Source of the DNA: Clostridia bacterium | GTDB taxonomy: Bacteria > Bacillota > Clostridia > Oscillospirales > Acutalibacteraceae | Length of the DNA: 64,000 bases | Assembly (NCBI GenBank): GCA_017473435.1 | Contig: JAFULG010000034.1 | Location: forward strand, 1-64,000 | Reading direction: 5' to 3' | In this document: positions 36,338-50,793 of the stretch, piece after piece | Layout: each line of letters opens with the position of its first letter | Position numbering within the stretch: position 1 is the stretch's first letter | Notes under the pieces: generated by a model | What the model was told of the DNA's origin: nothing | The model's input: only the letters and a program-made list of their open reading frames with translations | The model's database searches: none | Position numbers and translations under genes: made by a program

Positions 36338-39300
36338 TCACTCTACTTCAATCTCCTTACCTAAATGGAAGGAATAAAGCACCGCACTTTTCACATTGTA
36401 GCCTGTGCACTCACTCAACGCCTTTTTGTATAAAAGCACCTGTGAAGCGTACTTTACAATAAAATCGGTTTCGTTTTTCAGGCTGTCTGTTTTGTAGTCA
36501 ACAACAACCAGCTCACCGTTTTCAAGAAAAGCGCAGTCGGCAATACCCTGAATCATCATCTTTTCCCCGGAAAAGTCGGAAAGCTCCTCGTAAACCTCAT
36601 TCACGGGCACCTCAAGGGTAAATTTCTTTTCCCTCATTACAAGCGGACTTTCAACGATACGCTCAAAAAGTCTGCTTTCAAAAAAGCCCTTGAGAGCCTT
36701 TCGGTTGATACCCTTTGCCTGCTGCGTGCTGAGTAAGCCTTTTGAAACAAGGCGGTTAATTTCACCTTCAAGGTCTGCCTTAGCTTTTTCATAATCTGCA
36801 AACTGAATGAATGTGTGAGTGGCAATACCTCTCTGTGCACCGGTCAGACCTCCCTCGCTCAAAAATGAGGGTACGGCAGAGGCAAAATAGTCACGGTCAA
36901 TATAATTGCGGTCAACCTCGGACGCTGCCCTTTTTGTGATAACGCCCGACAACGCCTCATACCTGTACTTGTATGAAAGCTTTTGTGCAATCTCTTTGAA
37001 AAGGCTCTCGTCGGCTTCAGCTTCTTCAAATGCAACAGCCTCGTCGGCGGCTACCTCATCGGTACACTCTTTATACACCACCTTAAGCGGAGAAGGACAG
37101 TCAAGCACAACAGATGAGGGAATATCTGCTGCCTGCCTTAAAGCAAGACTGTCGGGATGTCTCAGCAGGCAGGTAACAAGCCAGTTGCCATAGCTTCCCG
37201 CCTTAGTAACGGCATAGGGTGTTATTTTTGTTTTTCCCCCGTTTACATCAATTGCGCACTTGCGGACAAAATCAGTCATTTTGTTGTGGGTCGCAACCAT
37301 AATTAGTTTTTCCTTGGCTCTGGTCATTGCAACATAAAGAACTCTCAGCTCCTCACTGATGCTGTCATGATGCATTGAAAGTCTGACGGCACTGTGGCAG
37401 ATTGTTCTGTACTGCTCAAAGGTATCAAGGTCACGGCGGACGATTCCGAGGCCGTGCTTCAGATTGATGATGAGATTTTTAACCTCGTCCATACGGTTGA
37501 ATTTTTTTGAGCAATCGGAAAGGATACAGACAGGAAATTCAAGGCCTTTAGACTTATGAATGGTCATAATCTTAACAACATTTGCACTCTGCACCTCACC
37601 GAGAGCACCTGTAAGATCCTGCTTTTCGCTTTTCAGACGGTCAACAAAGCGGATAAAGGACGAAAGTCCCGTATAGCCTGATTTTTCATAAACACAGGCA
37701 TAGTCAAAAAGGAGCATAAGATTAGCCCTTTTCATACCCGATTTATCCATTGCATCAAAAATTGAAGTCAGACCCGTTTCGTTATAAAGCTCGGTTATAA
37801 GCTCACTTGCCGGGAGGCATACAGAAAGATTTCTCCACCTTGAAACACGGTCAAGGAAATCTTTAACCTTAGGATTATTTTTCTCACTCTCACAAAGCAG
37901 ACAGGAGTAAATGTCACCCCTACCTGCAAGACGGATACGGCTTACATCGTCAAGAGTAAAGCCGAAAACCGGTGAAAGCATAACACTTAAAAGAGGTACA
38001 TCCTGCTTGGGGTTATCGATTATGCGAAGGAAGTTGAGTGCAAGGCTGATTTCCTTTGAACCGAGGAAGCTTCCGCCCGTTTCAGTAAAGCAGGGTATAC
38101 CTTTTTTACGGAAAACATCGGCATATATCTGTGCCTTTTTACTCACGGAGCGAAGAAGCACGGCAAAATCACCGTAGGTAGCCTTGCGCTCTGCATCACC
38201 CTCTTTAACTGTGTAGCCGCTTTTGAGCATTTCGTTAATTCTGTCGGCAACATATTCTGCCTGGAGGGTATCGTTATCTGTTTCTCCGGAAAGATTTGTC
38301 GTATCAAGCAGATGAAGCTCTGTTGCTGCTTCATCCTTAACGCTGTATGCTGCAAGAGGTACAAGCTCCTCCTCAGAGCCGTATTCGATGTCACCGCTTT
38401 GGGCACTCATAAGCTGTGAAAAAACAAAGTTTATTATATCCGTAACGCCCTTACGGCTACGGAAGTTGTTGCCTAAAAGTATTTTTGCAGGAAATTCCTC
38501 TTTACTTCTGTCGTAATGCTTATATGCATTTTTCAGCGCAATGAAAATGCCCGGCATAGCCTGACGGAAGGAGTAAATGCTCTGCTTGACATCACCTACA
38601 CGGAAAAGGTTGTTTTTGGAAATTGCAGTAAACAGCATATCCTGAGCCTTGTTTGTATCCTGATATTCGTCAATGAGAATTTCCTCATAAAATTCACAAA
38701 GACTCTCGGCTTCCTTTGTCCGCTCCCATCCGTCGGGAGTTTCCTTAACAAGAAGCCTTAAGGCGGTATGTGTAATATCGTCAAAATCTGCAATTTTCTT
38801 TTCTTTTTTCAGATTATACAAGTGCCTGCCGTAAAGCTTGGTTGCTTCGACAAGACTTTTCACAAGCGGAGCAAAAAATTCACAATCACTGTAAAAATCG
38901 GCTTCCGCACAACAGAAAATTTTTGCAAGCTCCTTTATGTTTTCCGTTGCAACCTTACGCTTTTCTACAAGGGTAAGAGTAAAGGCATCTTCCTTAAGAT
39001 GCTTGGGAGTATTACCGCGCCTTGCCACCTTGAAGCTTTCGGCGGCTCTTTTTGCCTCATCCCATTTTTTGCTAACAATGCTTTGAAGTATATACTCATA
39101 CTGAGCCTTGTCAGTTGACAGCGCATCGTAAAGCATTTTTTCAAGATCGGGATCGCCTGCAATTTCCCGAAGGCTGTCCTCGGTAATTGAAAGGCTGTAT
39201 TTACAGAGAGTTGCGGCATAATCAAAAAGCATTTCTCCGTGACGGCTTTCAGCAAGTGAACTGCAGTTTTCAAATTCTTCAGCCAGGCTGTCAAGCCAGC

Positions 39301-39868
39301 TTTCCGGGAAAGGAAAGGATCGTGAGCTTTTGTAGAGCGCAACTATACTCTCAGCAAGGCCCTTATCATCTCTGCCGGCGAAAAGAAGCTCCACAAGATC
39401 ACGGAAGCTTTTATCTCCCTTACGGTAAAGCTCCTCCATTGTAGCCTCACATGCTTCTGCGGAAATGACAGAGAGCTCTCCCTCGTCGGCGGTTTTGAAA
39501 TCAGGTGCGAGGTCAAGAAGATTAAAGTTCTCTCTGACAAGCGAGGAACAAAAGCTGTCAATAGTACAGATTTTTGCCGCTGAAAGAAGAATTTTCTGAT
39601 TGATAAGCCAGGAGTCATTCGGATTTTCAGCGATAAGGGAATTTATAGCCGCGTCAATTCTCTCACGCATCTCCCCTGCTGCCGCTCTTGTGAATGTAAC
39701 AATTAGAAAACGGTCAGCTCTGACGGGATTTTCCTTATCAAGTATTCTCTGAGTTACGCGCTCAACAAGAACAGCGGTTTTACCCGAGCCGGCCGCTGCT
39801 GATACAAGCACGTTACCACCCTTGGCACTTATAGCGTCCTTTTGCGCCTCAGTCCAGTTTCTGCTCAT
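36338..39868 (-). CDS. addA: ATP-dependent helicase/nuclease subunit AddA
   Basis: UvrD-like helicase plus nuclease of 1176 residues that processes DNA double-strand ends with AddB. Walker A VSAAAGSGKTAVLVERV, motif II ILIDEYQDTN, GNNFRSRKGV, the late helicase motif TIHKSKGLEFPVCIL and VAMTRAKEKL, and the C-terminal nuclease motif with GIADCAF and VVVDYKTDS are visible. ATG 39868 has GGGAGG 9 bases upstream and overlaps addB by 20 bases; the in-frame GTG 39877 lies in the ribosome site. Confidence 0.96.
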   Translation of the reverse strand: MSRNWTEAQKDAISAKGGNVLVSAAAGSGKTAVLVERVTQRILDKENPVRADRFLIVTFTRAAAGEMRERIDAAINSLIAENPNDSWLINQKILLSAAKICTIDSFCSSLVRENFNLLDLAPDFKTADEGELSVISAEACEATMEELYRKGDKSFRDLVELLFAGRDDKGLAESIVALYKSSRSFPFPESWLDSLAEEFENCSSLAESRHGEMLFDYAATLCKYSLSITEDSLREIAGDPDLEKMLYDALSTDKAQYEYILQSIVSKKWDEAKRAAESFKVARRGNTPKHLKEDAFTLTLVEKRKVATENIKELAKIFCCAEADFYSDCEFFAPLVKSLVEATKLYGRHLYNLKKEKKIADFDDITHTALRLLVKETPDGWERTKEAESLCEFYEEILIDEYQDTNKAQDMLFTAISKNNLFRVGDVKQSIYSFRQAMPGIFIALKNAYKHYDRSKEEFPAKILLGNNFRSRKGVTDIINFVFSQLMSAQSGDIEYGSEEELVPLAAYSVKDEAATELHLLDTTNLSGETDNDTLQAEYVADRINEMLKSGYTVKEGDAERKATYGDFAVLLRSVSKKAQIYADVFRKKGIPCFTETGGSFLGSKEISLALNFLRIIDNPKQDVPLLSVMLSPVFGFTLDDVSRIRLAGRGDIYSCLLCESEKNNPKVKDFLDRVSRWRNLSVCLPASELITELYNETGLTSIFDAMDKSGMKRANLMLLFDYACVYEKSGYTGLSSFIRFVDRLKSEKQDLTGALGEVQSANVVKIMTIHKSKGLEFPVCILSDCSKKFNRMDEVKNLIINLKHGLGIVRRDLDTFEQYRTICHSAVRLSMHHDSISEELRVLYVAMTRAKEKLIMVATHNKMTDFVRKCAIDVNGGKTKITPYAVTKAGSYGNWLVTCLLRHPDSLALRQAADIPSSVVLDCPSPLKVVYKECTDEVAADEAVAFEEAEADESLFKEIAQKLSYKYRYEALSGVITKRAASEVDRNYIDRDYFASAVPSFLSEGGLTGAQRGIATHTFIQFADYEKAKADLEGEINRLVSKGLLSTQQAKGINRKALKGFFESRLFERIVESPLVMREKKFTLEVPVNEVYEELSDFSGEKMMIQGIADCAFLENGELVVVDYKTDSLKNETDFIVKYASQVLLYKKALSECTGYNVKSAVLYSFHLGKEIEVE

Positions 39869-42800
39869 TGTCGTCACCTCCCATCAGCGTTCTTACAGCC
39901 TCATCGTGGCTTTGCTTTTTAATGTATCTGTAACGCGGATTTTCCTTCATACATACGTCTCCGTAATCACACCAGGAGCATACATCGGTGTATGCCGAGC
40001 CACAGACAGGTGTAGCCGGAACAATTCCGTTATGAATATTGTTACCCATATCACAGATTATTTCATCCATTTTAACTGCAAGTGCTTCAAGCTGTTTAAG
40101 AGTTATAAAATCGCCCTTAAGCACCTGCTTTTTCTCATCAAATTTTGCAGGAATAAACATTCCGCGCAAGTTTTTTTCCATATGAGCTATAACGTCGCCG
40201 TCATCAACAAGCATACCGCTCATCTGCGCGGTTTTAAGACGGTTAGTAAGCCTTTGCTCGCGGTCAGCATCACGTTCAGATGCAAGAGGTGTAATCCTCG
40301 CAGGAAAATAAAGCACACCTGACGGAGTAATATTTTCGTAATAGCCCTTGCCGTTTCGCCATATGCTGACAAGGTAAAGAAGCATCTGCATATTCATACC
40401 GGCAAGCACATCTCCGAGCTTGAACTTTTTCTCTCCCGATTTATAGTCAACGATTCGTATATATCTTTTACCGTCAAGGTCAAGGCTGTCCACACGGTCA
40501 ATGAAACCGTGAAGGGAAGCGCTGCCCCTTTCAAGATTATATATCATAGGTTCAACATCGGCATTTCTGCCTATACGAAGCTCAAAATCACAAGGCACGA
40601 AATCACTTTCTTCAAATTCAGCCTTAAGACGCAGCATAATAAATTCAAGTATTTTGCCCGTACGGTAGTAAAGGTAGTTGAAGCGTTCCGTTTTACTTTC
40701 GTCGCTACCCATATTTTCATCCATATATTCTTTAAGGATAGTTCCTATTTCAAGATGAAGCTTTTCGTCGGTAAGCTTCAGAAACTCCTCACCCTTGTAT
40801 TTGCCAAGGAGAATTTCAAGCACGTGATGAATTACCGTACCGCTTTGCGAAGCATCCAACCTTGCCTTTATTCTCGGCTTGGCCTTAAGTCCGTAACGGC
40901 AGAAGAAAAGGAAGGGACATTTTCCGTAATCCTCAAGCTTCGAAGCGGAAAAGCTCATATTTTCGCCGAAAAGCTCAATGGCATTTTCTTTATTTTCAAA
41001 AGCTAAATCATCGTTATTTACTGCTCTTTTAATCGCATCCAACCGAGAACGGTATTCCTCTTTATCTGCAAAATAGCTTTTGAGCGATGAAACAAAAGCA
41101 GAATTATCGCTCCACTTTTTGGATAAAAGTTCAAAGGCAGCCTCCTCGCTTTCGACAAGCTCAATTTCACTTTCGTCACTCTCAAAGGCTATTTTAACAG
41201 AAGGAAAAATTGCAAGAGCCTGTTCAACGCCTTCACTTTTGTTTAGCTTTTCACCGTCAGCACCGCTCACACAATAGGTAATGTGAAGCTCTCTCGTTGC
41301 CGCTGAAAGTGCGTTATAAAGCAGGAAGCGCTCTCTTGTAACGGTCTGCTCAAGCTCCTCGCCGATTTCAAGGCCGACGTTCTTGAACTTATCCTTTTCC
41401 TTACGGGAGAAAATACCTCTCTCCCCTGCCACAGCAGGAAAAACACCGCTGTTAAGTCCCATAACAAAAACAACAGGAGAATTATTGGTCAGCATTCTGT
41501 CCGCAGAGCAGATAAGAACCTCATCAAATCCGTCCGGAAGCTTACCGAGAGACTTTGTACGTATGACAAGAGTGAAAATTTCATAAAGTCGTTCAACGGA
41601 AACAACGCTGTCGCCAAGGGTACAGGCAATTTCATCAAAGGCTTCCATAAGAATATCCCACACCTTTTCCTGCTCAAGAGCAAGCTCGGTAAGACCCGAC
41701 TGTTCGAGGCTTATGGCATATTCCTTCAGTCTTTCATCAACACCGTTTTCACGAAGGAAGGAATAAATCACAGCGACAGCTTCCTTACCTGACAGACCGG
41801 TGATCTTTTCCTTGAAATCAACTATGGGAATAATAATTTTTTCTCTTGTACGGTTTATTCCGTCGAGAACATCAGTTCTCTCCTCGGTCATTTTTTCACC
41901 TAAGCCGTCGGGATTTTCAGTAAAGGGTAACAGCCACTTTTTACCTGAGATATCCCACATAAAGCAGTAATTTTCCGCTTCGGAGATTTCCTCAGCAGTA
42001 AGATTCATAAGTCCTGTTTTACAAAGACGGAATATATAGTCAGTAGAAAGGCCCTTTGCACAGATGAGAAGAAGAGAAGCAACAAAGGACACCAGGGGCT
42101 GATTTTCAACCGCCTGCCTTTTATCCTCAAACAATGGTACGCCGTATTTTTTAAGCGCATGACGCAGATGCTTTTCATAGGTATCACCGTTACGGAAGCA
42201 GACAGCAATATCACGACAACGGTATTTTTCACTTCGGAGTATTCTTTTGATTTTACGTGCAACAAAATCACACTCGTGCAATATACTTGCCGAGCAGGTA
42301 ACCGTTATATCCTCGGTATAATGAGTAAAGCTTTGAGGCACAGGCTTATAAAGCTCTTTTTCAAAAGCATAAAGAGCAGGTGAAAAGCCGATCTCTTTTC
42401 TTTCGCAGCGGATGATTTCTCCCGTTGCTACACCGTTGTTGCCTGCACAGAGCCGAAGCTTACGGGCGGCAGCGTTGCAAAGAGCGAAGGGAGAAAGGTT
42501 GTCGTGCGTATCTATACTGTCACTGCAAAGGGTGATATAAACCTCCTTTGCGGTTTTCATAGCTGTAAGAATTATATCAATCTCGGGCTTTGTGAAGTAA
42601 GCAAAGCCGTCAAAAACAACGGTCTTATCCTTAAAGAAATCCTTACCCTTAAGGCTTTCGGCAACAAAGGAAAGAAGATCGGCGTCATCAAAATAATTCT
42701 GTGTTACTACAGCATCGTAAGCACGGAGAATCAGGGCAGTTTCACGTGCCTTTGCTTTTAAAAGGTTGTCGTCAATATTCTGTATGCTTTTTTCAAATTC

Positions 42801-43202
42801 TTCAAGGGTAATCCCCTCTTTTTTCATTTCATCAAGGGTGTCAAGCATTTTGCTGACAAGAGCAATTTCATTTTTATGTCGCGAAAAAACATTCAGCTTT
42901 TCCGTAAGGCTTTCAACGGCAAGAGACATAAGAATGCTCCTTGCACCCTGCTTTGCTATAGGCGCGGTTATTCCGCCATAGGTCTGAAGGACAACGGAAG
43001 CAAGGCGTGAAAAGGAAAGCACCTCCACCTCACAGGCAAGCCGCGGACCTGAAAGCTCAAGTATTCTTTTGTCACTCTGAAAAGTAAACTGCTTAGGGAC
43101 AATGAGCATTGCCTTTTCCCCGTTTTTCACACTCTTTCCGAGTATTTCGTGTGCCTTTGCGGTTTTACCGCTACCCTTTACACCGATGATAAAATTAAGC
43201 AT
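39849..43202 (-). CDS. addB: ATP-dependent nuclease subunit AddB
   Basis: Partner of AddA, 1117 residues. N-terminal degenerate helicase with Walker A GVKGSGKT; C-terminal nuclease with HGFIDRVDSLD and IVDYKSGEKKFKLGD. The 4Fe-4S ligands typical of AddB are present: a distant cysteine in EDYGKCPF and the cluster CSWCDYGDVC near the C-terminus. ATG 43202 follows AAAGGAG; the frame continues to 43250, but that lies inside the promoter. Transcribed with addA. Confidence 0.95.
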   Translation of the reverse strand: MLNFIIGVKGSGKTAKAHEILGKSVKNGEKAMLIVPKQFTFQSDKRILELSGPRLACEVEVLSFSRLASVVLQTYGGITAPIAKQGARSILMSLAVESLTEKLNVFSRHKNEIALVSKMLDTLDEMKKEGITLEEFEKSIQNIDDNLLKAKARETALILRAYDAVVTQNYFDDADLLSFVAESLKGKDFFKDKTVVFDGFAYFTKPEIDIILTAMKTAKEVYITLCSDSIDTHDNLSPFALCNAAARKLRLCAGNNGVATGEIIRCERKEIGFSPALYAFEKELYKPVPQSFTHYTEDITVTCSASILHECDFVARKIKRILRSEKYRCRDIAVCFRNGDTYEKHLRHALKKYGVPLFEDKRQAVENQPLVSFVASLLLICAKGLSTDYIFRLCKTGLMNLTAEEISEAENYCFMWDISGKKWLLPFTENPDGLGEKMTEERTDVLDGINRTREKIIIPIVDFKEKITGLSGKEAVAVIYSFLRENGVDERLKEYAISLEQSGLTELALEQEKVWDILMEAFDEIACTLGDSVVSVERLYEIFTLVIRTKSLGKLPDGFDEVLICSADRMLTNNSPVVFVMGLNSGVFPAVAGERGIFSRKEKDKFKNVGLEIGEELEQTVTRERFLLYNALSAATRELHITYCVSGADGEKLNKSEGVEQALAIFPSVKIAFESDESEIELVESEEAAFELLSKKWSDNSAFVSSLKSYFADKEEYRSRLDAIKRAVNNDDLAFENKENAIELFGENMSFSASKLEDYGKCPFLFFCRYGLKAKPRIKARLDASQSGTVIHHVLEILLGKYKGEEFLKLTDEKLHLEIGTILKEYMDENMGSDESKTERFNYLYYRTGKILEFIMLRLKAEFEESDFVPCDFELRIGRNADVEPMIYNLERGSASLHGFIDRVDSLDLDGKRYIRIVDYKSGEKKFKLGDVLAGMNMQMLLYLVSIWRNGKGYYENITPSGVLYFPARITPLASERDADREQRLTNRLKTAQMSGMLVDDGDVIAHMEKNLRGMFIPAKFDEKKQVLKGDFITLKQLEALAVKMDEIICDMGNNIHNGIVPATPVCGSAYTDVCSWCDYGDVCMKENPRYRYIKKQSHDEAVRTLMGGDDNEQKLD

Positions 43203-43229
43203 AGCCGACTCCTTTGATTTGATGAGCCT

Positions 43230-43258
43230 ATTATATAACAAACCGATCACTTTTTCAA
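43230..43258 (-). promoter_or_regulatory. Promoter of addBA
   Basis: On the minus strand TTGAAA (43258-43253), 17 bases, TATAAT (43235-43230). The -10 box begins 28 bases before the addB ATG. Confidence 0.82.
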
Positions 43259-45048: not shown

Positions 45049-45876
45049 TCAGATTTCCTTAAGACCTGCTTCACGGAGCATCTGATTAACCGTACGTTGG
45101 TCAACCCAGAATACAACCTCAAACATTGCAAGTGAGGTTAGGATATGCCAGATTGAGTGGCCGTGAATGTTACCGAGAATGAAGGTATTGATTTCATTGT
45201 CACCCCAGATTGAGGTAATAATGAACGCAACAAGGAATGTAAGAATAATAAGCACAAAGAGAATCTTTTCCGACGAAACCATCTTTTTAAAGTTTGCTCC
45301 GAGAAGATACAGAATAGGTAGAGCTGTAAGGAAGCAACCGAATTCCGCAAGGGAAAGGCCGCCGGTTTTACCGTCCATGGGAGCTCCGCCGCCACCGATA
45401 TAAAGCGGTCTGTCATGAAGTACAAACACCTCATATGTAAGCACCGTAAGAACAATTGCCATAATCACCGTGACGGAGATAAGGAAAATATTCCTCTTTT
45501 TCCGCTCACTTGCACTCTGATAAAATTCAAAGGCAAAACAGCAAACACCTGACCAGGCAACAAGCTCGGTGAAGGACATATCGATGTAGCTTGCAAGGAG
45601 CTTCGTAGTGAGTACGCCGGGCTGGAATTCACCATAGTTTGCGGTGTGCATACCGACAGAGGTAACTGACATAATCATATAAAGTAAAATGAATACGTAC
45701 CAGTACCACTTCTTGTTCTTTTTGATGAGCATAATTGCAATGCAGATAAATGCCGCAAGGGTGTAAACCCAGTTGGTCTGAACAGCCGCATACTGTGCAC
45801 AGTACTCGGCAAGAGTTGTGCCGCCTTCAAGAACTATGTCTTTAAATGACGGCCAGTCAATAAAGTTTAATTCCAT
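45049..45876 (-). CDS. Seven-helix CREST/alkaline-ceramidase-like membrane protein
   Basis: Membrane protein of 275 residues with seven predicted helices (about 36-51, 58-77, 96-118, 129-153, 173-195, 204-223, 240-258). The zinc-hydrolase motif of the CREST superfamily (alkaline ceramidases, PAQR, Per1) is visible: S73 and H77 as SxxxH, D99 at the start of helix 3, and H240/H244 as HxxxH in helix 7, with WHILT directly after as in animal alkaline ceramidases (HGWWHILT from memory). It may hydrolyse an amide in ceramide or a related lipid inside the membrane. AAAGGAGG lies upstream. Unlike eukaryotic relatives, the SxxxH-to-D distance is 11 residues longer. Confidence 0.68.
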   Translation of the reverse strand: MELNFIDWPSFKDIVLEGGTTLAEYCAQYAAVQTNWVYTLAAFICIAIMLIKKNKKWYWYVFILLYMIMSVTSVGMHTANYGEFQPGVLTTKLLASYIDMSFTELVAWSGVCCFAFEFYQSASERKKRNIFLISVTVIMAIVLTVLTYEVFVLHDRPLYIGGGGAPMDGKTGGLSLAEFGCFLTALPILYLLGANFKKMVSSEKILFVLIILTFLVAFIITSIWGDNEINTFILGNIHGHSIWHILTSLAMFEVVFWVDQRTVNQMLREAGLKEI

Positions 45877-45953: not shown

Positions 45954-48900
45954 TTAAAAATCAAACAAACTCATCTGTCTTGTCTCAGGCAAGCTGCCGA
46001 AGGCGCCTACCTGACGGAGTGCTTCAATCGTTGACGATGATGCTCCCGCCTTCTGAGCAAAGTCATCAATTGATACAAACTCACTTGTGGTTTCTCTTGC
46101 CTTTGCAAGGGCAATCGCCGCATTATCGCCGACACCGCTGAGCGCACCGAAGGGCATTCGGATTTTGCCGTCTTCAATTTCATAGGAAAGTGCCGCAGAT
46201 TTATAAATATCGATAGGAAGAAATTCAACACCGCGAGCCATCATTTCATTTACAACCTGCAAGGTAGGATACATATTAAGCTCCTTGGGCTGAGCATCGT
46301 TGCCCTTACTCTTGATTTCTGCCATTCTGCGCTTAACGGCATCTCTGCCCTTAAGCACGGTTACAGCCTCAAGGTCACCGCCACGCACCGTCATAAATGC
46401 CGCATAATATTCAAGCGGATAATAAATCTTGTACCAGCCGAGACGGAGTGCCGCACTTACGTAAGCGGCGGCATGAGCCTTCGGGAACATATACTTTATT
46501 TTCATACAAGAGTCAATGTACCACTGCTCAACACCGTTGTCCTTCATGGTTTGAATGTGTTCCTGAGTAAGAAGCTTTGTAGCTTTACCCTTACGTACAA
46601 TTTCCATAATTTTAAAGGCAACGCTTGGCTCAACGCCCTTATGCATAAGATAAACCATAATATTATCTCGTGTACCGATAACTTCGGAAATTGTACAGGT
46701 ACCGTTTTTGATAAGCTCCTGAGCGTTACCGAGCCAAACATCGGTACCGTGAGAAAGACCTGAAACCTGCAGCAGGTCAGAGAAGTTCTTAGGCTGAGCA
46801 TCAAGAAGCATCTGAATAACAAAGGGTGTACCCATTTCAGGAATTGAGAGTGTACCCGTAGGACAGTCTATCTCCTCTGCAGTTACACCGAGGGGCTCAG
46901 GACTTAAGATAAGCTCGTAAATTTTAGGGTCACATATGTCCGTATCCATTGCGGGAATACCCGTTAAATCTTCAAGGTATTTGTACAGCGTGGGAACATC
47001 ATGACCGAGGTTATCAAGCTTAAGAATTGTATCGTGAAGAGCGTGGAAGTCGAAGTGAGTTGTACGGGTTTCGCTCTTTGAATCATCAGCCGGGTGCTGA
47101 ATGGGTGTAAAGTCCGAAGCAACAAACTCATTCGGAACAACAACCATACCTCCGGGATGCTGACCTGTTGTACGCTTAACACCGGTACAGCCTCTTGTAA
47201 GCCTGTCCTCTTCGGCACGGCTTACAACAATATCTCTTTCCTGAAGGTACTTTTTAACATAACCGTATGCAGTCTTATCAGCAACAGATGCGATTGTACC
47301 AGCCTTGAAAACATGGCCGTCACCGAAAAGAGTTTCAGTATAGCGGTGAGCTCTTGACTGATACTCACCCGAAAAGTTAAGGTCGATATCAGGGCTCTTA
47401 TCACCCTTGAAGCCGAGGAAGGTTTCGAAGGGTATATCGTGACCGTCACGGATAAGTGCAGTACCGCAGTTAGGACAGTTTTTCGGCGGAAGGTCATAAC
47501 CTGAACCGACTTCACCGTTAAGGAAGAACTCGCTGTAGCGGCACTCCGGACAACGGTAATGAGGTGCAAGCGGATTAACCTCAGAAATTCCCGATGCGTT
47601 AGCAACGTAGGAAGAGCCTACTGATCCTCGAGAGCCTACGAGATAACCGTGCTCATTTGAGTTTTTAACAAGCTTCTGTGCAATCATATAAAGAACGCCG
47701 AAGCCGTGCTTGATGATTGAATTAAGCTCCTTGTCAAGTCTTTTTGCAACATACTCGGGAACGGGATCACCGTAGTGATCCTTTACTCTCTCCCAGCAAA
47801 GACGGGTAAGCTCTTCGTCGGCACCCTCAAGGGAGGGCGGATAGTTACCGCTCGGGATGGGGATAATTTTCTCCACCATATCGGCAATTTTATTTGTATT
47901 GGTAATAACAATTTCCCTGGCAGTATCCTCACCGAGATAATCAAACTCCGCAAGCATTTCCTCAGTGTTACGGAAGTAAAGCGGCGCCTGATTGTCGGCA
48001 TCGGGAAAGCCCTGACCTGCCATAAGAATAGCACGGTATTTTGCATCGCCCGGATCAATAAAATGAACGTCGCAGGTTGCTACAACCATCTTGCCCAGAG
48101 CATCTGCAACATGGATAACCTTGCGGTTAAAGTTGCGAATATCCTCAACAGAGTTAACCTGAGGAAATTTTTCGCTTCTTATCATATATTCGTTATTACC
48201 GCAGGGCTGAATCTCCAGGTAATCGTAGAAAGAGGCTATTTTCAGTATTTCCTCGTCACTCTTACCTTCGGCGATGGCACGGTAAACCTCACCGGCTTCG
48301 CAGGCGCTGCCTACAATAAGACCCTCTCTGTGCTTTATCAGCTCACTTTTCGGAATGATAGGTCTTCTGTGAAAATATTCAAGGTTTGATTTTGTGATAA
48401 GCTGATAGAGATTCTTAAGGCCTGTAAGGTTGCGGACAATCAGAATCTGATGAAAATACTTGCTCTTCGTCTTTTTCCAGTTTTCAAAATCCGTATCGGT
48501 ATCGTCGATGAAATATCCTTCCATACCGTAGAGAATTTTGATTTTGCCGCCTGCCGCACCTACGGCTTCGGGGTAAGCCTGAACAACACCATGGTCAGTT
48601 ATGGCAATAGCCTTATGTCCCCAATCAATAGCACGTTTAACAAGAACGCTTGCATCGGTCATACCGTCCATCATGGACATTTTTGTGTGAAGGTGAAGCT
48701 CAACGCGCTTTTCTTCAGCGTCGTCTGTTTTTTTGATTTTATCTACAAGGCTGATAGCCCTAGGAGAGATTACATTTTCACCGGAGAATTTATCAAAGGC
48801 AAGATCGCCTCTTATAAGAACAGTTACACCGTTTTTAACCTTATCAATTATGTTTTCGCAGTTTTCCTTACGATCAAAGATTTTGCAGGTATAGGAATAC

Positions 48901-49688
48901 GTACCGTCAGTAATGTTGAAGGTTACAATATTACTTCTGCCGTCACGGGTTTCCCTTGTTTCAAAGGAGAATACATCACCCCAAACAACACAGGAGCCGT
49001 CCTCGGGTGAAATTTCCTTAAGCGGTCGGGGATTTTTAGTAATCTTGTTTCCGAAAATCGGCTTTGCTGTTTCAAGATAAAGCGGTATTCCCTCAACAAT
49101 CTTATGCTCCTTCGGTTTTGAAGGTGCGGCATAAACAGGGTCAAGACCTTTTTTAATAAGGTTTTCCTCTTCTGCCTTTTTATGGAATGCTTCAATTTCC
49201 TCGTCGCTGATGGATAGCTCTGTCTGACCGCAAAAGCTGACCTCAACATCACGGTCAAAGCGCTTTTTTATAAGGCGCTTCATAAATTCATCGGCACCTA
49301 CGCCCTTTAAGATATCACCGCCGCCGTGGGAAAGCTCGATAAAAAGCGTTCTGCCGTCAAAACGGGCATTACTGTGGGTAAAGAAGCCGTTTGTTGCTGC
49401 AATAGCTCTGTTGGCTTCGTGAACCAGAGAGGAATAATAATCCTCGGAAAATTTTTCTGAAGGCATTTTAGGGAAGATTGTCACTGTATTCACAAGAAGC
49501 TTTTCCCTTAAGGCGTTTTCTGCGCCTTCTATAATTTTATAGTTTACAACAAGCGGAAAAAAAGCATCAATTTCGATGCTCTTTTTTTCCATACTTATTC
49601 TTATATTTTCAATCTGACAGCCATGAAAGGCTTCATTCAATGCTTCCTGAGAAAAAGCACCGAAAAGTTTTTCAAAACCGTTATTCAT
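45954..49688 (-). CDS. polC: DNA polymerase III alpha subunit PolC, lacking the exonuclease domain
   Basis: Replicative polymerase of 1244 residues, about 190 shorter than Bacillus PolC (1437). Order: N-terminal domain (1-200), OB fold (about 225-315), PHP (329 on, VELHLHTKMS and ITDHGVVQAYPEA), then directly NLTGLKNLYQLITKS at about 420. In Bacillus the proofreading exonuclease with its DxE motif is inserted in PHP after YGMEANLVDD; here the matching YGMEGYFIDDTDTD joins KTKSKYFHQILIVRN with about 15 residues between. The palm (DKSPDIDLNFSGEYQ), zinc ribbon (CPECRYSEFF, CPNCG) and fingers are intact. The C-terminus QMSLFDF is a sliding-clamp-binding motif. No frameshift or gap is apparent. 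Confidence 0.95.
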   Translation of the reverse strand: MNNGFEKLFGAFSQEALNEAFHGCQIENIRISMEKKSIEIDAFFPLVVNYKIIEGAENALREKLLVNTVTIFPKMPSEKFSEDYYSSLVHEANRAIAATNGFFTHSNARFDGRTLFIELSHGGGDILKGVGADEFMKRLIKKRFDRDVEVSFCGQTELSISDEEIEAFHKKAEEENLIKKGLDPVYAAPSKPKEHKIVEGIPLYLETAKPIFGNKITKNPRPLKEISPEDGSCVVWGDVFSFETRETRDGRSNIVTFNITDGTYSYTCKIFDRKENCENIIDKVKNGVTVLIRGDLAFDKFSGENVISPRAISLVDKIKKTDDAEEKRVELHLHTKMSMMDGMTDASVLVKRAIDWGHKAIAITDHGVVQAYPEAVGAAGGKIKILYGMEGYFIDDTDTDFENWKKTKSKYFHQILIVRNLTGLKNLYQLITKSNLEYFHRRPIIPKSELIKHREGLIVGSACEAGEVYRAIAEGKSDEEILKIASFYDYLEIQPCGNNEYMIRSEKFPQVNSVEDIRNFNRKVIHVADALGKMVVATCDVHFIDPGDAKYRAILMAGQGFPDADNQAPLYFRNTEEMLAEFDYLGEDTAREIVITNTNKIADMVEKIIPIPSGNYPPSLEGADEELTRLCWERVKDHYGDPVPEYVAKRLDKELNSIIKHGFGVLYMIAQKLVKNSNEHGYLVGSRGSVGSSYVANASGISEVNPLAPHYRCPECRYSEFFLNGEVGSGYDLPPKNCPNCGTALIRDGHDIPFETFLGFKGDKSPDIDLNFSGEYQSRAHRYTETLFGDGHVFKAGTIASVADKTAYGYVKKYLQERDIVVSRAEEDRLTRGCTGVKRTTGQHPGGMVVVPNEFVASDFTPIQHPADDSKSETRTTHFDFHALHDTILKLDNLGHDVPTLYKYLEDLTGIPAMDTDICDPKIYELILSPEPLGVTAEEIDCPTGTLSIPEMGTPFVIQMLLDAQPKNFSDLLQVSGLSHGTDVWLGNAQELIKNGTCTISEVIGTRDNIMVYLMHKGVEPSVAFKIMEIVRKGKATKLLTQEHIQTMKDNGVEQWYIDSCMKIKYMFPKAHAAAYVSAALRLGWYKIYYPLEYYAAFMTVRGGDLEAVTVLKGRDAVKRRMAEIKSKGNDAQPKELNMYPTLQVVNEMMARGVEFLPIDIYKSAALSYEIEDGKIRMPFGALSGVGDNAAIALAKARETTSEFVSIDDFAQKAGASSSTIEALRQVGAFGSLPETRQMSLFDF

Positions 49689-49746: not shown

Positions 49747-50793
49747 TTATAATTTTTCTATTTCCTTAAGAAGCTCCGAAAGGATTTCCTCTTCACTTAC
49801 CTTACGAAGAATTTCACCCTTTTTGAAAATAACAGCACAACCGTCACCGCCTGCAATACCGATATCGGCTTCCTTTGCTTCGCCGGGTCCGTTTACCACA
49901 CAGCCCATAACTGCAACGGTAATACTCTTTTTAACATTGCGAAGCTCGTTTTCAACCTTGTTTGCAAGACCGATAAGGTCAATTTTTGTTCTGCCGCAGG
50001 TAGGACAGGAAACAAGCTTAGGGCTTGAATTATCAAGGTCAACAGCCTTTAAAATGTCAAAGCCTGCATACACTTCCTTGACCGGACTGTCGGTAAGTGA
50101 AACGCGGATTGTGTCACCGATTCCGTCACAGAGAAGTGAGCCGATACCGACTGAGGATTTGATAAGACCCATACGCTCTGTACCCGATTCTGTAACACCG
50201 AGATGCAAGGGATAATCACAGATTGAGGCAACCTTACGGTAAGCGGCAATCATATTTATTACGTTTGAGGATTTGATTGAAATTACGATATCGTCAAAGT
50301 CATATTTCTGTAAAAGTCTCACATGATACATAGCGCTTTCCGCCATTGCATCAGGGGTGGGAGCACCGTACTTTGCAAGAATTTCCTTTTCAACGGAGCC
50401 GGAGTTGACACCTATTCTGATAGGCACTCCCCTTCTCTTACAAGCCTCGGCAACTGCCTTTACGTTTTCGTCTGCACCGATGTTGCCGGGATTGATGCGG
50501 ATTTTGTCAACACCTGCCTCCAGGCTTTCAAGAGCAAGCTTATGATTAAAGTGAATATCTGCAACAAGAGGAATAGAGATGCTCTCCTTAAGTGCGGCAA
50601 CAGTTTTTACCGTCTCAATATCAGGTACTGCAACACGGACAATTTCACAGCCTGCCTTTTCGAGCTCAAGAGCCTGACGGACATTGCCTTCAATGTCGTG
50701 AGCGGGAACGTTGAGCATTGACTGAACGGTAACCTTGCTGTCACCGCCGATGAAAATATTACCGAGTTTTATTTTTTTGCTGTTTCTCTGCAT
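49747..50793 (-). CDS. ispG: 4-hydroxy-3-methylbut-2-enyl diphosphate synthase IspG
   Basis: Penultimate MEP-pathway enzyme, 348 residues, a 4Fe-4S protein converting MEcPP to HMBPP. N-terminal TIM barrel with GGDSKVTVQSMLN, PLVADIHFNHKLAL and KIRINPGNIG; C-terminal Fe-S domain with VSCPTCGRTKIDL and AVMGCVVNGPGEA, giving three cysteines and the conserved glutamate. GGAGG precedes ATG 50793. Lies between rseP and polC as in many Clostridia; the product feeds IspH elsewhere in the window. Confidence 0.97.
   Translation of the reverse strand: MQRNSKKIKLGNIFIGGDSKVTVQSMLNVPAHDIEGNVRQALELEKAGCEIVRVAVPDIETVKTVAALKESISIPLVADIHFNHKLALESLEAGVDKIRINPGNIGADENVKAVAEACKRRGVPIRIGVNSGSVEKEILAKYGAPTPDAMAESAMYHVRLLQKYDFDDIVISIKSSNVINMIAAYRKVASICDYPLHLGVTESGTERMGLIKSSVGIGSLLCDGIGDTIRVSLTDSPVKEVYAGFDILKAVDLDNSSPKLVSCPTCGRTKIDLIGLANKVENELRNVKKSITVAVMGCVVNGPGEAKEADIGIAGGDGCAVIFKKGEILRKVSEEEILSELLKEIEKL

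Follow-up and report, generated by a model that had tools for sequence, protein, structure and literature searches.

The canonical PolC of B. subtilis and E. faecium (9qpc) is a drug target and carries a DEDDh exonuclease between strands 3 and 4 of its PHP domain (PMC12592400). A PolC variant lacking this exonuclease was described by Timinskas et al. (2013; PMC3919608). According to that survey the variant makes up 6% of PolC, with all but one case in Clostridia and Negativicutes, and it accounts for 16% of the systems that combine PolC with DnaE1. The same authors proposed that DnaE1 may be the enzyme of normal replication in these organisms. They also remarked that, apparently, no PolC+DnaE1 system had by then been characterised, and asked whether PolC is important in them. 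The nine metal ligands of the PHP site are quoted as HHDHEH[C/H]DH (PMC12926913). In Mycobacterium tuberculosis DnaE1 this site is a zinc 3'-5' proofreading exonuclease, and the β3-β4 loop of the PHP domain lines the groove leading to it. The loop has 18 residues in Taq and is the seat of the exonuclease in Geobacillus PolC (PMC5636811).

The window analysed here is the whole stretch of 64,000 nucleotides, from contig 22 of a 2.56-Mb draft genome of 91 contigs that is 96.88% complete. Its polC gene (45954..49688, on the minus strand like the other window features located below) encodes a PolC-type DNA polymerase III alpha of 1244 aa without an inserted exonuclease, as judged from the ORF, Pfam and NCBIfam. 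The frame is open across all 1244 codons, in agreement with an earlier note on this DNA. Part one of the PHP domain (residues 330-396; 48501..48701) contains the metal ligands H332, H334, D341, H366 and E390. Part two, together with the region that follows it (residues 412-603; 47880..48455), contains H413, C463, D540 and H542 (Pfam and alignment for both parts). At the position of the DEDDh exonuclease of other PolCs, the alignment of 196 PolCs places a linker of 15 residues (residues 397-411; 48456..48500). The polymerase core, Pol3 alpha and finger, covers residues 626-1049 (46542..47813; PF07733, PF17657), and a tandem helix-hairpin-helix follows at residues 1153-1238 (45975..46232; PF14579). 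The C-terminal sliding-clamp motif reported in the earlier note is present as QMSLF (residues 1238-1242; 45963..45977), read by eye against the consensus QL[S/D]LF quoted in PMC3919608.

Pfam returned a single uninterrupted PHP match over residues 330-488 as well as matches to Pol3, finger, HhH and PolC NTD-II, and no RNase_T domain was found in the protein. The domain order, NTD-OB-PHP-Pol3-HhH, is that of PolC-type alpha subunits, with an OB match that scores 22.6, under its cut-off of 27. NF001688 matched with 1470 bits (cut-off 873), residues 405-1243 corresponding to positions 608-1445 of the 1445 in the model. TIGR01405 matched with 1346.8 bits (cut-off 1043.45), residues 405-1242 corresponding to model positions 374-1211; in the genome search it appeared in two pieces, model positions 2-184 and 374-1211. 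The unbroken PHP match, the lack of RNase_T and the 15-residue linker confirm the original observation of a PolC without exonuclease. The junction of about 15 residues had been placed at 48453-48521, which corresponds to PolC residues 390-412; the alignment gives 15 aa between residues 396 and 412.

The protein shares NTD, OB, PHP, Pol3, HhH and clamp motif with canonical PolC and departs from it at the DEDDh exonuclease, where it has 15 residues instead of 174-212. Since PolC without exonuclease is a known variant, its assignment to PolC stands on the other features. The Geobacillus kaustophilus PolC structure 3f2b also lacks the exonuclease and aligns in one piece with window residues 221-1243. 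There the exonuclease had been taken out to allow crystallisation (PMC12592400), whereas the window PolC lost it in evolution, and Geobacillus PolC has N at the position of ligand D540. M. tuberculosis DnaE1 shares the nine-ligand PHP site and the uninterrupted β3-β4 loop. It differs in its DnaE-type domain order, and its PHP activity has been measured (PMC5636811), while the window PolC is known from sequence. With no Exo in its PHP domain, an origin in Clostridia and a DnaE1 partner, the window PolC has the features of the variant of Timinskas et al., to which it adds one more case. It is a real, already described variant that looks functional. Whether the loss had been described, which the earlier note could not say, is answered by that survey. 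Fractions are what the parts of the survey used here give; loss counts, a dead intermediate and genome-wide absence of DnaQ are not treated in those parts. The recurrence of the loss, the dead intermediate, the lack of a detected DnaQ fold and a clade without PolC are additions made here. The parts of PMC3774996 and PMC4070872 examined do not treat PolC without exonuclease, and no paper counting losses of the PolC exonuclease was found by title and beginning of abstract in the open-access literature, which is weak evidence of novelty.

Relatives were taken as the best 80 of 569 matches to a query without exonuclease. Within these 80, the closest named relatives are metagenome-assembled 'Oscillospiraceae' or 'Clostridia' genomes, many from ruminant guts, and most record titles read Clostridia, Oscillospiraceae or Ruminococcaceae. 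The 213 candidate PolCs became 196 once 5 with fewer than 1100 aa and 12 that duplicated another over the last 800 residues were removed. The set had been drawn up without L196 (the window itself), L207 and the partial copies L085-L092 and L123-L151. Over these 196 distinct PolCs the length between the two PHP parts is bimodal, 10-36 aa in 119 and 174-212 aa in 77; the exonuclease of other PolCs takes up about 205 residues. Because the query lacked the exonuclease, the set favours PolCs of that kind, and 119 versus 77 is no frequency. Both the DxE and the HxAxxD motif are present in 75 of the 77 inserts. PF00929 matched in 189 of 197 genomes sampled from the order and in at least 225 of 249 from the family. 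By our own reading of the matches listed, 110 of the 249 lack a PF00929 match that falls clearly within a frame of PolC size. A search of 80 of these 110 with TIGR01405 (up to 7 candidates scored per genome; up to 3 in the order) gave PolC without exonuclease in 63, one of them (G164) split over two contigs, and PolC with a poorly matching insert in 2; in 15 no PolC was detected. Second, partial PolC-like frames lie beside the main PolC at G294:C11:170034-172127 (843 aa), G245:C16:30277-32220 (794 aa) and G421:C29:146113-147171 (617 aa). The last includes an exonuclease domain, and all three could be phage-borne or paralogous.

A FastTree phylogeny was built from 900 PolC columns with the insert excluded. 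The presence or absence of the exonuclease changes 14 times on this tree, at least 9 times on well-supported branches, and the window PolC belongs to a clade of 28 in which every member lacks the domain. A few long branches are of unsure placement (L223 with L107, also L245 and L201), and none of these four is in a second tree of 51 rows made with IQ-TREE, which forces 8 changes. A single ancient loss was rejected: forcing all rows without exonuclease together on the 51-row tree costs 926 log units (AU test, p 7.4e-8). When losses only are counted, 18 are obtained on the full tree, 15 with branches below 80 collapsed and 10 with those below 95 collapsed. Assuming no regain, the sequences thus point to loss of the domain about 10 to 18 times among these relatives. 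The length and sequence of the linker are broadly clade-specific, with 32-33 and 28-29 residues in two clades other than that of the window, which is the pattern that separate deletions would leave. Regain of the exonuclease by exchange is not favoured. Identities in the exonuclease and in the PolC body agree (Spearman 0.77 over 2775 non-independent pairs of 75 active rows), so that rows with the domain amid rows without it look like survivors and not regains, though the nearest exonuclease to that of L062 does not belong to its nearest body.

The two inserts without DxE or HxAxxD (174-178 aa) are in L182 and L186, from genomes G294 and G209 of genus g128. These PolCs are sister to the clade with linkers of 32-33 residues (support 96 with IQ-TREE, 92 with FastTree) and represent an apparent INTERMEDIATE. 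The natural reading, which rests on this one genus, is that the domain died first and was deleted later. Two possible correlates of the loss were also considered. Median GC at the locus is 0.44 in rows without the exonuclease and 0.48 in insert-bearing rows; GC content, an idea from PMC3774996, was set aside as a correlate when 9 independent pairs went in either direction (1.9 versus 2.4). Columns 477-481 and 505-516, on the surface of the PHP domain, rank high among 55 columns that differ with exonuclease state, and W478 is found in 49 of 77 insert-bearing rows versus about 2% of the others. Convergent change of this surface is a lead only, at most 4.8 of 9 pairs being in agreement.

All nine PHP ligands are complete in the window PolC, a check that the earlier note had proposed. 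The set HHDHEHCDH is kept in 119 of 119 PolCs without exonuclease and in 77 of 77 with an insert (196 of 196). The finger domains of the window's genome number two, one in PolC and one in a DnaE, and no second PolC came to light. The DnaE, assigned to DnaE1 on its length and complete PHP ligands and not on a tree of DnaE groups, keeps all nine ligands too. So do 27 of the 28 DnaE1 sequences with a complete N-terminus from 30 chosen genomes, the window's own included; two further rows are incomplete. The exception, from a genome without detected PolC (G236), has Y for one ligand H. Given that the loop which hosts the PolC exonuclease has 18 residues in Taq, loss of the domain returns it to a DnaE-like size. 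The ligands are equally intact in relatives with the exonuclease, and their conservation therefore shows compatibility and not compensation; on alignment evidence, an intact PHP site may permit the loss of the exonuclease.

The reading preferred here is that the PHP site of PolC, together with that of DnaE1 and with mismatch repair, probably makes the DEDDh domain dispensable. The lineage would have deleted the exonuclease from the β3-β4 loop and been left with a short loop of DnaE type, and PolC would remain a working replicase. Its nine-ligand PHP site would be catalytically active and would proofread, as in Mycobacterium DnaE1. DnaE1, the partner, would bring a PHP site of the same kind, and mismatch repair by MutS-MutL would remain. 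It is proposed that the loss is tolerated because these three elements persist. The interpretation in the earlier note is supported as to a clean loss of the domain, and proofreading through PHP, one of the options it raised, fits best given nine intact ligands in both polymerases, with the activity itself deduced from them. If PHP does proofread, PolCs of this kind would allow its activity to be measured in PolC without interference from a second nuclease.

A different account holds that PolC has been demoted, that DnaE1, with its own PHP site intact, copies the chromosome, and that loss of the exonuclease is a step towards loss of PolC. The idea was raised for PolC+DnaE1 bacteria by Timinskas et al. 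(PMC3919608), and the 15 of 80 preselected family genomes without detected PolC speak for it, as does the grouping of 10 such genomes in one DnaE1 clade (support 98) among lineages that lack the exonuclease. Against it, PolC without exonuclease keeps its PHP ligands and does not evolve faster than in exonuclease-bearing sisters. Pooled root-to-tip lengths are greater in rows without the exonuclease (0.652 versus 0.586, p 3e-7), but faster evolution after the loss was rejected, as this difference vanishes in sister contrasts, where the side without the domain is longer in 8 of 18 (p 0.81; some contrasts share reference rows). On balance demotion seems rather unlikely. The DnaE1 tree covers 30 chosen genomes, 10 of them without detected PolC; a DnaE1 PHP query found no PolC in those 10 and matched the PolC contig in 20 of the 20 others. 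With midpoint rooting, the clade without PolC lies in a group otherwise made up of 8 genomes whose PolC lacks the exonuclease (supports 94, 85 and 87). The interspersed exonuclease-bearing lineages (L062, L069, L259, L076 and L082) lie outside the sample of this tree, so exonuclease loss there may have come before or after PolC loss.

These observations could be joined into a succession, put forward here tentatively: the PolC exonuclease dies and is repeatedly deleted, after which one large clade loses PolC as well, leading to replication by DnaE1 only. The window would represent the middle stage, in which replicative proofreading is down to the PHP sites of PolC and DnaE1. Some 10 to 18 losses, the dead-domain intermediate and the relatives without detected PolC provide natural replicates for the question of how important PolC is, and the same lineages could also serve to test whether PHP proofreading alone can carry a replicase. 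Several further observations concern genomes without detected PolC. One of them (G250) has a frame of 1098 aa, at G250:C26:13501-14130, whose PHP stretch is 29% identical to that of DnaE1; it is perhaps another DnaE-type polymerase. Stand-alone DnaQ-fold proteins that score well against the PolC exonuclease profile occur in five, L247 (G227), L248 (G424), L249 (G247), L250 (G250) and L251 (G328), in frames of 196-205 aa, or 469 aa in G227; they are possible epsilon-like partners of DnaE1. None of the 10 genomes sampled from family f9 (G008, G029, G043, G056, G069, G081, G092, G103, G113 and G123), which belongs to the same order, has a full PolC match. Their best TIGR01405 E-values are 2e-28 to 3e-89, whereas the remaining 187 genomes all lie below 1e-200 (with up to 3 candidates scored in each), which suggests that PolC was lost another time within the order; 6 of the 10 also have no PF00929 match.

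Proofreading for PolC in trans by a separate DnaQ-like exonuclease was the other route named in the earlier note, and it is improbable here. The statement that the window holds no DnaQ-like gene stands, and it extends to the whole draft genome, where PF00929 gave 0 matches (10 of 14 control genomes match) and profile A1, made from the exonuclease domains of 22 relatives, gave 0 matches at E up to 10. A1 matched 9 of 15 near-complete genomes of the genus at E up to 1 and nothing in the remaining 6, the window's own included; neither profile detects a DnaQ fold in 5 of the 14 near-complete genus mates. At 97% completeness, the draft could still lack a DnaQ gene that the cell has. Stand-alone DnaQ-fold proteins do exist in some relatives, with a PF00929 match in 23 of 34 genus genomes (own included) and none in 11. 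The frames that contain these 32 matches measure 69 to 537 aa, and none is PolC-sized. The proteins fall into several dissimilar types, and many have a long C-terminal extension, which argues against a single conserved partner. The frames L083 (G122; 404 aa) and L084 (G027; 481 aa) combine an N-terminal hydrophobic stretch and a DnaQ domain with a C-terminal part judged BRCT-like by eye.

Equally doubtful is that the cell tolerates an unproofread PolC and leans on mismatch repair. Both MutS and MutL are present in the window's genome, the latter on contig 5 in a gene interrupted by the contig end, and MutL was found in 78 of 80 genomes tested, the window's own included; the two without a match, G202 and G254, lack the PolC exonuclease, a point that tells against the preferred reading. 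An unused PHP site might be expected to decay, yet each of the 119 PolCs without exonuclease retains the ligands, though a structural role is possible. According to PMC11890065, which covers PolC proofreading mutants of B. subtilis, mismatch repair in that species is kept from becoming partly saturated by proofreading. In three inducible strains, impaired in MutL, in PolC proofreading or in both, rates at full induction ranged from 3.66e-7 to 5.78e-6, compared with 9.74e-10 for the reference. PolC proofreading is accordingly not dispensable without cost in that species, which again weighs against the preferred reading. An assembly deletion or chimera, conceivable in a draft of 91 contigs, can be dismissed because the domain is absent throughout the window's clade of 28 PolCs, 27 of which come from other records, produced by several projects; the linker has 15-16 residues in 26 and 13 in two (L023 and L024).

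The upstream neighbour of polC is ispG (GcpE; 49747..50793). Beyond it lie genes for an M50 protease with a PDZ domain, DXP reductoisomerase, a cytidylyltransferase, undecaprenyl diphosphate synthase and ribosome recycling factor. On the other side, between polC and a sodium:solute symporter, 45049-45876 encodes an apparent membrane protein of 275 aa with no Pfam match at E 1e-6. A helicase-nuclease pair resembling AddA and AddB (UvrD-helicase, ADDB_N, PDDEXK_1) is encoded at 36338-43250.
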